Of a stretch of DNA of 6,310 nt, positions 2,873-5,362 are shown in pieces. The notes under the pieces are model-generated. The model was given only the letters and a program-made list of their open reading frames with translations. It ran no database searches and was not told the origin of the DNA. Source of the DNA: Planctomycetota bacterium (GTDB taxonomy: Bacteria > Planctomycetota > Phycisphaerae > UBA1845); assembly GCA_022561415.1 (NCBI GenBank), contig JADFRH010000150.1:1-6310 (forward strand), given 5' to 3'. Each line of letters opens with the position of its first letter. Within the stretch, counting starts at the first letter, position 1. A program made the position numbers and the translations under genes.

Positions 2873-4396
2873 ATGCACCTGCTGACCATATTGGCGTTCG
2901 CCCTCATCTTCTGGGAGGCTGAGCAACCGGAACTCGGGCAGTGGCTCGGGAATGAGGGCACGCTGGGGACGGTGCTACTGACCGCCCTACCGCCGATTGT
3001 CCTCGGGATCACGGCCTTCCTGATCGCCAGGCGTGCGCTTCGGCTGATCGACTCGGGCACCGGCTCGTCAAACCGGGCGCACCAACTCCACCATCGCGGC
3101 GGTGCCGTTCTTCGGCTTGCGGCGCTGGCCGGCTTCGGTCTCACCGTGTTCGCGACGCCCTGGCCCGAATGGCTCCGCGTTACCGAACCCGCGCTGCAGA
3201 TCTTCGGGGATTTGATCGTGCTCTCGCCCTTTCTGGCGAGCGTCCTGGCCATCTGGCTCGGGATGTATCCTTTCGAGCGAGCCGTGCGCGACCAGGTGGT
3301 GCTCGATCCGGGCGAGCCGGCCGATGACGGGCGACTGCCGTGGCGGCTGCGGTCCTACCTCGAGTTCAACCTTCGCCATCACTTTTTCATCGGGGCCGTA
3401 CCGATGACGCTGATTCTTTGCGGAGCCAACCTCGCACGCGGCTACGAAAAGGCCCTCGTCGCCCGGACCGGGGTCGACTGGGCGCCGGACGCGCTGCTTG
3501 GCCTCGTGGCCGCGGGTGTTTTCGTGCTGTCTCCGCTCATGTTGCGACGCATCTGGAAAACCGCTCCGCTCGAGGACGGCCCACTGCGCGATCGGCTCGA
3601 AACGATCTGTCGGCGCATCGGCCTGCGCTGTAGAGACATACTCGTTTGGCACAGCGACGGCGTTATGATCAACGCGGCCGTGATGGGCTTGTTTGCCAGG
3701 GTTCGCTTCGTCCTGCTCTCCGACGCGCTGCTCGAGACGATGGACACGCGGCAGATCGAGGCGGTGTTCGGGCACGAGGCGGGGCACGTGCGCCACCGTC
3801 ACATCCAACATTTCCTCGTCTTCGCCTTCGTCGGCTGGCTGGCGGTGGTGGGCATGATGGAACTGCTGGCGCGCGTGGCGATCGAAGCGGAATGGGATCA
3901 GGCCGTTTCCGCGGTGGGTATCCAAACCGTAAGCGTCGTGGGGGCCGTGCTCTTCTGGGGGATTGGGTTCGGCTGGATATCGCGACGGTTCGAGCGAGAG
4001 GCGGACCTGTTCGCGGCCAAGTGCGTCACGCCCGACGTAGCCCAGTGCCGCGAACCATGCAGCGTGCATCTCGACGAGCCGGCGCCACCTGATGTCAAGA
4101 ACCGCGTCTGTGCGACCGGCGCCTCGATATTCACCTCCGCCCTCGATCGGGTGGCCGTGTTGAACGGCATTCCTCACGAAGAGAACAGCTGGCGGCACTC
4201 GTCGATCGGGTTCCGGATTCGATTTCTCCAATCGCTCGCGGGCGACCCCGCACGGGCGGCGACGTTCGCTCGGACGCTTCGGCGCGTCAAAGTCGTCGTG
4301 CCGGCAGCGGCCGTTATCGGCTCCGCAGTTTTCGTGTACTATTGGTCCGTCGTATCGGTGCCGGCCATTCTGCGACTTCAACAGGCTGCCACCTAA
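2873..4396 (+). CDS. Integral membrane M48-family zinc metallopeptidase (Ste24/HtpX-like)
   Basis: A 507-residue membrane protein with the M48 signatures in order: NAAVMGLFARVRFVLLSDALL (267-287), the zinc motif HEAGH (301-305; His301, Glu302 and His305) and SRRFEREAD (370-378), whose Glu374 is the third zinc ligand. A typical C-terminal 'WRHSSIGFRIRFL' (440-452) follows. About eight or nine hydrophobic segments are visible, roughly at 2-14, 32-55, 80-95, 107-130, 170-187, 206-224, 313-335, 348-368 and 474-500. The catalytic site therefore lies between membrane helices on the cytoplasmic side, as in HtpX and Ste24. The family cleaves misfolded or specific membrane proteins; the substrate here is unknown. 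It is longer than HtpX (about 290 residues). Between the third zinc ligand and the C-terminal block lies a longer-than-usual insert with Cys384, 392, 396 and 413. The start is nearly forced: an in-frame TAG at 2858-2860 precedes ATG 2873, and AGGA (2859-2862) is a usable SD. Confidence 0.92.
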   Translation: MHLLTILAFALIFWEAEQPELGQWLGNEGTLGTVLLTALPPIVLGITAFLIARRALRLIDSGTGSSNRAHQLHHRGGAVLRLAALAGFGLTVFATPWPEWLRVTEPALQIFGDLIVLSPFLASVLAIWLGMYPFERAVRDQVVLDPGEPADDGRLPWRLRSYLEFNLRHHFFIGAVPMTLILCGANLARGYEKALVARTGVDWAPDALLGLVAAGVFVLSPLMLRRIWKTAPLEDGPLRDRLETICRRIGLRCRDILVWHSDGVMINAAVMGLFARVRFVLLSDALLETMDTRQIEAVFGHEAGHVRHRHIQHFLVFAFVGWLAVVGMMELLARVAIEAEWDQAVSAVGIQTVSVVGAVLFWGIGFGWISRRFEREADLFAAKCVTPDVAQCREPCSVHLDEPAPPDVKNRVCATGASIFTSALDRVAVLNGIPHEENSWRHSSIGFRIRFLQSLAGDPARAATFARTLRRVKVVVPAAAVIGSAVFVYYWSVVSVPAILRLQQAAT

Positions 4397-4474: not shown

Positions 4475-5362
4475 ATGACCGCCGCAAACATCATCGACGG
4501 AGCCGTACTCGCGGAACGCATCAAGGAAGAGACGGCCGAGCAGGTTCGGCGCCTCGGCGACCAGGGCGTGCGCGTCAGCCTCGACGCGGTGATGGTCGGC
4601 GATCCGGATGTGGGCAAGATCTACGCGCGATCGCAGCGGAAGCGCTGCGAAGACGTCGGCATTGAATACCGCCTTCACACGCTCGACGAGGAGGCGGACG
4701 AGTCGCGGATCGTCGAGCTGATCCGCAGGCTCAACGCCGACCCCGCAGTCACCGGCATCTTGGTGAATCTCCCGCTGCCCGCCGCCGTGGACACGCCCGC
4801 GGTGCAGTATCACATCGACCCCTACAAAGACGTCGAGGGGGTCAATCCATCCAACATCGGGCTGCTGTTTTATGACAGCCCGATCATCGCGCCGTGTACG
4901 GCACTGGCCGTCATGGAGATTCTCAAAGAGGCGAACGTCGAGCCGCGCGGACTCAACGCGGTGGTCGTGGGGCAGGGAGGCATCGCGGGCAAACCCGTGT
5001 CGCTTTTCCTCTTGCAGAAGATGGCCACCGTGACCTGCTGCCACATCGCCACGCGCGACCTGACCGAGCACACACGGAACGCCGACCTGCTGGTTGTCGC
5101 GGTGGGCAAGCCCGATTTGATCCGCGCCGAGGACGTCAAGCCCGGTGCGGTCGTGATCGATGTGGGAATCAACCGCATCAACTGCCCGGACGGAAAAACC
5201 CGGATCGTCGGCGACGTTGCCTTCGACGAAGTGAAGAAGGTGGCCGGTTTCATGACGCCGGTGCCGGGCGGGGTCGGACCGGTAACGGTGGCAATTCTCC
5301 TGCGAAGTGCGGCCGAGGCGGCGGCGAAGCAAGTGGCCAGTCCGCGACGGTTGGAGAAGTAG
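4475..5362 (+). CDS. folD: FolD-family methylenetetrahydrofolate dehydrogenase, cyclohydrolase site substituted
   Basis: FolD normally oxidises 5,10-methylene-THF to 5,10-methenyl-THF with NAD(P) and hydrolyses that to 10-formyl-THF in the cytosol. The 295 residues from ATG 4475 match the family length and align with E. coli FolD almost without gaps: IIDGAVLAERI (6-16), KIYARSQRKRCEDVGI (48-63), GILVNLPLP (94-102), KDVEGVNPSNIG (118-129), PCTALAVMEIL (140-150), the dinucleotide loop VVVGQGGIAGKP (163-174), ADLLVVAVGKP, GAVVIDVGIN and TPVPGGVGPVTVAILL (261-276). Tyr50 is kept, but the catalytic Lys54 (human Lys56) is Gln, the Gln98 of VQLPL (human Gln100) is Asn, and the second Asp of KDVDG (human Asp125) is Glu121. 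The NADP-phosphate contacts of the human enzyme (Arg173, Ser197) are Gln167 and Ile191. I infer a dehydrogenase with little or no cyclohydrolase activity. GTG 4454 is an alternative start adding seven unconserved residues. No clear SD is present. Confidence 0.93.
   Translation: MTAANIIDGAVLAERIKEETAEQVRRLGDQGVRVSLDAVMVGDPDVGKIYARSQRKRCEDVGIEYRLHTLDEEADESRIVELIRRLNADPAVTGILVNLPLPAAVDTPAVQYHIDPYKDVEGVNPSNIGLLFYDSPIIAPCTALAVMEILKEANVEPRGLNAVVVGQGGIAGKPVSLFLLQKMATVTCCHIATRDLTEHTRNADLLVVAVGKPDLIRAEDVKPGAVVIDVGINRINCPDGKTRIVGDVAFDEVKKVAGFMTPVPGGVGPVTVAILLRSAAEAAAKQVASPRRLEK

Follow-up and report, generated by a model that had tools for sequence, protein, structure and literature searches.

The window, a stretch of 6,310 nucleotides of a planctomycete contig (JADFRH010000150.1), was read by open reading frames and Pfam matches, and contains five complete genes and one partial open reading frame, all on the + strand. 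In order, these are the partial frame, which has no Pfam match, ribBA, a gene resembling NAD-dependent epimerases, an M48 peptidase gene, a folD homologue and a DUF480 gene. The features discussed below are collected in Table 1. A protein 100% identical to the window FolD (P0002) is present on two other contigs (longest 6262 bases).

Table 1. Features of the folD region of the window. Q-E, loci with Gln54 and Glu121; K-D, loci with Lys54, Gln98 and Asp121.
Feature	Position in window	Strand	Observation
M48 peptidase gene	2873-4396	+	
folD homologue	4475..5362	+	ATG 4475, stop 5362, 295 aa; predicted monofunctional 5,10-methylene-THF dehydrogenase
Tyr50, substrate-stacking tyrosine kept	4622..4624 (tac)	+	Y in 195/196 Q-E loci
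Gln54 replacing catalytic Lys54 (human Lys56)	4634..4636 (cag)	+	Q in 196/196 Q-E loci; K in 88/88 K-D loci
Asn98 replacing Gln98 (human Gln100)	4766..4768 (aat)	+	varies within clade
Glu121 replacing Asp121 (human Asp125)	4835..4837 (gag)	+	invariant in 16-row clade alignment
Gln167 at human Arg173 column (NADP+ 2'-phosphate site)	4973..4975	+	R in 88/88 K-D, 13/196 Q-E loci
Ile191 at human Ser197 column (NADP+ 2'-phosphate site)	5045..5047	+	S/T in 88/88 K-D, 14/196 Q-E loci
Repeated gtgaagagt-like words, non-coding, 3' of folD	5363-5460		

FolD is a core enzyme of one-carbon metabolism that is routinely annotated as bifunctional, and among the homologues listed, the close relatives with full names in their source records have both activities named. 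The only Pfam matches of the window protein at E ≤ 0.001 are the two FolD domains, PF00763 (107.3 bits against a gathering score of 32.8) and PF02882 (202.8 bits against 27). With the NCBIfam FolD models the best score was 299 bits against a cut-off of 396, and none of the best 25 of the 30 matches listed reached its cut-off, although this is a weak test, made without a K-type planctomycete FolD for comparison. An AlphaFold2 model built from 16 sequences gave a mean pLDDT of 85.9, with a weak stretch at residues 124–138, and when this model was compared with the PDB by Foldseek the best 50 rows were all FolD or MTHFD, at query TM scores of 0.85–0.92. Since the model and its matches are those of a FolD/MTHFD protein, the gene is predicted to encode a sound fold and does not appear to be decayed.

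Direct reading of the codons places Tyr50, Gln54, Asn98 and Glu121 where bifunctional FolD has Y, K, Q and D, so that the catalytic lysine of the YxxxK motif is absent and Gln54 stands in its position. The alignment with E. coli FolD (1b0a) contains a one-residue gap near residue 30 and two two-residue gaps near residues 233–240, and no gap from Tyr50 to Glu121. The assignment of these four residues against the E. coli enzyme in the earlier note is exact. In the human enzyme Lys56 acts in both reactions, Gln100 works with Lys56 and Asp125 binds the pterin (PMC3368264). The D121E change keeps the acid, at a position whose Asp125 equivalent concerns pterin binding (PMC3368264, PMC6443876).

The pattern at positions 50/54/98/121 is more than a chance finding: in the 120 homologues listed from 8000 scored, it was YQNE in 116, YQHE in two, and FQNE and YRNE in one each. 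The 80 genome loci kept fall into 15 with Q54...E121 (Q-E) and 65 with K54-Q98-D121 (K-D). The former belong to planctomycete or Phycisphaerae records and have N, H, Q or L at residue 98; the latter are mostly from Chloroflexota, with Clostridia, Proteobacteria, two planctomycetes and others making up the rest. Across 16 aligned members of the clade, with identities down to 47%, Q54 and E121 do not vary. In a comparison of 15 Q-E loci, the seven closest (L001–L007) have a homologue of the M48 peptidase immediately upstream of folD and in the same orientation; the other window genes had no match in these loci, some of which are short.

A sample of 298 genomes was drawn from the class of a Phycisphaerales genome (G004), the class names being presumptive, and FolD residues were read in 243 of them; the remaining 55 comprise 15 genomes without a match to the Q-E alignment and 40 others. 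Each FolD read was either K54-Q98-D121 or Q54-x-E121, and no K...E or Q...D mixtures occurred among the FolDs read from these 243 Phycisphaerae genomes. By genome, 162 were Q-E only, 61 K-D only and 20 had both, where ‘only’ refers to FolDs actually read: a second match, unread or possibly different, is present in six Q-E-only genomes (G004, G041, G181, G190, G286 and G298) and in two K-only genomes (G252 and G272). A second, canonical folD is thus found in 20/182 Q-E genomes. The totals of 196 Q-E and 88 K-D are loci, not genomes, some genes being represented by two overlapping loci; a misaligned row (L012) was dropped from the residue counts and its genome was read from L183. In three Q-E loci (L183, L184 and L191, from G012, G015 and G020) the stop-to-stop frame containing folD extends over 732–1112 aa.

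On a FolD tree of 301 sequences, from which the last 40 loci were left out, the Q-E proteins form one clade with weak support (0.67). Parsimony requires one K/Q change at position 54 and 12 changes at residue 98; because of these 12 changes, and because all tips outside the Q-E clade have Gln98, residue 98 appears to be under relaxed constraint within it. The earlier note had taken the three changed positions together as a signature and had proposed looking for co-occurrence of Q, N and E in one clade. This holds for Q54 and E121 but fails for residue 98, which in the 182 Q-E genomes is H in 101, Q in 52, N in 25, M in two and S in two. Since Gln is retained so often and the position varies in the clade, we dropped it, and the diagnostic pair is Q54 and E121, not N98. 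A displaced Lys56 serving as catalytic stand-in had been named in that note as the refuting case. It is not conserved, residue 56 being K in 84, R in 61 and another residue in 51 of 196 Q-E loci, and it was dropped as a substitute lysine even though K or R is present in 145/196.

FTCD_C, the family of FchA and the cyclodeaminases, was found in 15/15 Q-E genomes and in 0/2 canonical planctomycete controls. In 14 of the 15 a shorter frame (205–437 aa) was present, and G010 has only a frame of 601 aa. Across the class the family occurs in 213/298 genomes. It was present in 176 and absent from six of the genomes with a Q-E FolD (n = 182), against three present and 58 absent where only K-D FolD was read (n = 61; Fisher p ~4e-45, uncorrected for kinship). 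Among the 55 genomes without a FolD reading, 34 have FTCD_C, 11 of these belonging to the 15 that lack a FolD match. As fchA is seen in its relatives, we infer that the window's own genome contains it as well.

The nine genomes that depart from this distribution are of two kinds. In the three K-only genomes with FTCD_C (G157, G243 and G252) the frames are of 574–644 aa and hence FTCD-sized, as expected for the fusion protein FTCD of histidine degradation; G252 also has a second FolD match whose residues are unread. The six Q-E genomes without FTCD_C may be incomplete assemblies; two of them have Fhs, one of these also having a K-type FolD, and four are without Fhs. A K-type folD adjoins a long FTCD-type gene in L292 of G252 (3-1712) and in G105:C51 (24447-26813), and on the FolD tree 22 of the 23 K-type second copies of Q-E genomes lie in one K-type clade. 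The pattern suggests that the K-type second copies are linked to histidine breakdown.

For three standalone partner proteins, the only NCBIfam match at E ≤ 0.001 was the FchA model NF045657, in each case below its cut-off of 275 bits (91.6 bits for G001; 212.7 and 201 bits for the G236 and G161 proteins). The best PDB match of the G236 partner was FchA (7vg4, 151.5 bits), and that of the G001 partner was a cyclodeaminase (1o5h, 71 bits), with FchA (7vg4) at 60.9 bits. An FTCD_C match does not in every case tell FchA from cyclodeaminase. A separate FchA is documented for some microorganisms (PMC7219735). In G236 and G161 an fchA of 207 aa overlaps the ATG of a Q-M-E folD by one base. Upstream of the G161 pair (L159 1-1462) are a gene resembling hexulose-6-phosphate synthase/RraA, partial in the locus, and one for 6-phospho-3-hexuloisomerase, as judged from the families tested; similar translations follow in the same order in G236 (L140), and in both genomes Fhs is encoded on the same strand of the same contig, ~2 kb further upstream. 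These loci possibly represent a cluster for formate or formaldehyde assimilation in Phycisphaerae.

Kinship was taken into account with an RpoB tree. Its 30 genomes (29 from the class and one outgroup) were selected by FolD type among those of known FchA state. All nine discordant genomes were left out, so that the tip-by-tip agreement of FchA state with FolD type (30/30) is by choice, and what the tree contributes is the number of switches. FolD type changes four times on this tree, compared with a mean of 10.4 and a minimum of 6 changes in 1000 label shuffles, and because FchA state agrees at all 30 tips its four changes coincide with those of FolD type. With support of 100 in each case, G102 (K-only) pairs with G065 (Q-E), seven K-only genomes form a clade whose sister group is Q-E G012/G020/G106, and the Q-E genomes G161 and G236 are nested within a K-only group. 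By parsimony each joint switch may be a gain or a loss. In the sampled sister class (that of G017) the Q-E codon pattern (KDVEG), which recovers 156/196 Q-E loci and 0/88 K-type loci, was found in 0/198 genomes, and FTCD_C likewise in 0/198. Extra in-frame sequence interrupts four of the RpoB matches, with ~224–232 aa near model position 391 in G019, G139 and G218 and ~130 aa near position 200–230 in G212 (RpoB loci L422-L425 = G212, G218, G019, G139).

The earlier note had envisaged either another cyclohydrolase or Fhs as the source of 10-formyl-THF. The first half of this proposal agrees with the FchA-type gene in 176/182 relatives; the second does not, as Fhs was not found in 140/182 Q-E genomes. 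Fhs scored over its cut-off in 112/298 class genomes, and we rejected it as a general source in view of its occurrence in 0/17 genomes first searched and 42/182 Q-E genomes. FchA without Fhs and with only Q-E FolD read is the state of 117/243 genomes, 111 of them with a single FolD match, and FchA, Fhs and only Q-E FolD that of 40/243. The 61 K-only genomes divide into 44 with Fhs, 14 with neither Fhs nor FTCD_C and three with FTCD_C. Mch (PF02289), the H4MPT cyclohydrolase, occurs in 2/2 sister-class controls and in 0/15 Q-E genomes, and the H4MPT route was rejected on this count. The C-terminal domain of Fmt is present in 13/15 Q-E genomes, which therefore need 10-formyl-THF.

The dinucleotide loop had been described as intact in the earlier note. 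The PGGVGP loop is kept, but the columns that hold the 2'-phosphate of NADP+ in the human enzyme are mostly replaced (Table 1). Human Arg173, His196 and Ser197 hold this phosphate (PMC3368264), the role of Ser197 also being given in PMC9173628. On the basis of these columns, a preference of Q-E FolD for NAD+ seems reasonably likely. The assignment is insecure, however, because E. coli FolD, an NADP+-dependent enzyme (PMC6443876), also lacks equivalents of Arg173 and Ser197, having A and R in these columns.

Published mutants bear on the chemistry. According to PMC5688156, E. coli FolD K54N has no detectable cyclohydrolase and ~19% dehydrogenase activity, and Q98H retains ~1% and ~8%, respectively; the K54N strain grows very slowly, and hydrolysis of methenyl-THF can be spontaneous, which is given as the likely reason why the mutants survive. 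PMC9173628 doubts that the lysine acts catalytically in hydride transfer, and the modelling of MTHFD2 left the role of this residue in cyclohydrolysis unsettled.

Overall, it is very probable that the window folD encodes a monofunctional methylene-THF dehydrogenase, the cyclohydrolase having been lost, with an FchA-type partner. This prediction is supported by the genome comparison and the E. coli mutants, and it agrees with the earlier note, which had proposed a dehydrogenase without the second activity and another supply of 10-formyl-THF. The Q-E FolD would oxidise 5,10-methylene-THF to 5,10-methenyl-THF, and with Gln54 it would be unable to open the methenyl ring efficiently. A separate FchA-type cyclohydrolase would make 10-formyl-THF for purines and fMet, so that the job of bifunctional FolD would be split over two proteins in Phycisphaerae, and the pair would be present or absent as a unit. 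We infer cyclohydrolase loss and dehydrogenase retention from the residues, the published mutants and the FchA partner, and cofactor preference from the Arg173 and Ser197 columns; retention of the dehydrogenase is an assumption, because both K54N and Q98H lowered this activity in E. coli.

It is unlikely that the Q-E enzyme is still bifunctional, with Gln54 and Glu121 performing the cyclohydrolase reaction in another way and the FchA-like protein serving, for example, formimino-THF cyclodeamination. Such an enzyme would be compatible with the ordinary FolD fold of the model, with the unsettled role of the lysine in the MTHFD2 modelling, with a partner family that includes cyclodeaminases (one partner scoring best against one) and with the four Q-E genomes that have neither FTCD_C nor Fhs. 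It accords poorly with the undetectable cyclohydrolase of K54N, with the FchA-like genes, which change state along with Q-E FolD at all four switches of the 30-genome tree and occur in just 3/61 K-only genomes as FTCD-sized frames, and with the unconstrained residue 98 of the Q-E clade. The same four genomes could also be explained if cyclohydrolase was lost since spontaneous hydrolysis of methenyl-THF suffices, the link to FchA then reflecting shared ancestry. That such hydrolysis is possible, and the likely reason why the E. coli mutants survive, is in its favour, yet the slow growth of K54N, the presence of FchA in 176/182 Q-E genomes, the four joint switches of FchA and FolD type on the 30-genome tree and the overlap of fchA with Q-E folD in two genomes together make this explanation very improbable.

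We give hardly any credence to a different pterin substrate for the Q-E enzyme, for instance methylene-tetrahydromethanopterin. In its favour, H4MPT genes are well known from planctomycetes, Glu replaces the Asp that binds the pterin, and both sister-class controls contain Mch; against this, none of the 15 Q-E genomes has Mch, 162/243 genomes have only Q-E FolD read (six with a further unread FolD match), and the Fmt domain in 13/15 Q-E genomes indicates that 10-formyl-THF is needed. Within the reading of a monofunctional dehydrogenase with an FchA-type partner, a bolder proposal can be put forward tentatively: Gln54 and Glu121 may form an alternative, fully active and undamaged site that transfers hydride to NAD+ without the lysine and acts as a dehydrogenase only, insensitive to carolacton since Lys54, which anchors it (PMC5688156), is gone. 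The pair of Q-E FolD and FchA and the one-protein FolD might then be modules that Phycisphaerae exchange for one another.

In much of a bacterial class the job of FolD appears to be split, as indicated by two invariant residues, a second gene and several joint switches, and the division between Q-E and K-D offers a natural experiment on the residues required for dehydrogenase as opposed to cyclohydrolase chemistry. The label ‘bifunctional FolD’ is probably wrong for the Q-E group, because the lysine that the cyclohydrolase step requires is lost and nearly all Q-E genomes read also have a likely separate enzyme for this step. If this is true, the FolD annotation of the 182 Q-E genomes (of 243 read) changes, and FchA has to enter models of their purine synthesis; natural insensitivity to a FolD antibiotic is also predicted. 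A literature search over titles and the beginnings of abstracts, with few subscription journals covered, returned no paper that describes a FolD clade marked by Q54/E121 or a division of the work of FolD in Phycisphaerae. The term K56Q occurred in no paper among the matches listed, and ‘Planctomyc’ is absent from the main text of a family survey across life (PMC11064299). What is probably new is a class-wide, FchA-coupled FolD that is probably monofunctional; monofunctional methylene-THF dehydrogenases as such are already known, including the Peptostreptococcus productus enzyme and a yeast enzyme cited with it (PMC6443876).

Bifunctional FolD of E. coli (1b0a) shares with the window protein its fold, both Pfam domains, Tyr50, the PGGVGP loop and ~45% identity in the structural alignment. 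The window FolD differs in lacking Lys54, Gln98 and Asp121, and its relatives carry a separate FchA homologue. The carolacton-resistant E. coli mutants K54N and Q98H (PMC5688156) are a laboratory counterpart of the loss of Lys54 or Gln98, but they are single changes with impaired dehydrogenase, whereas Q54 and E121 occur jointly in the natural clade. Yeast MTD1, an NAD+-dependent monofunctional enzyme (1edz), resembles the window FolD only in predicted function (dehydrogenase alone, NAD+) and is very distant from it, matching at E 2.6e-9 over query residues 37–203 only. Its active-site residues, inserts and dimer mode are presumably different. In Methylorubrum extorquens, MtdA and FchA provide one dehydrogenase and one cyclohydrolase, the same division of labour as that proposed here. 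The partner in the Q-E genomes is also of the FchA family, but the dehydrogenase is a FolD-family protein, unlike MtdA, which presumably belongs to another family.
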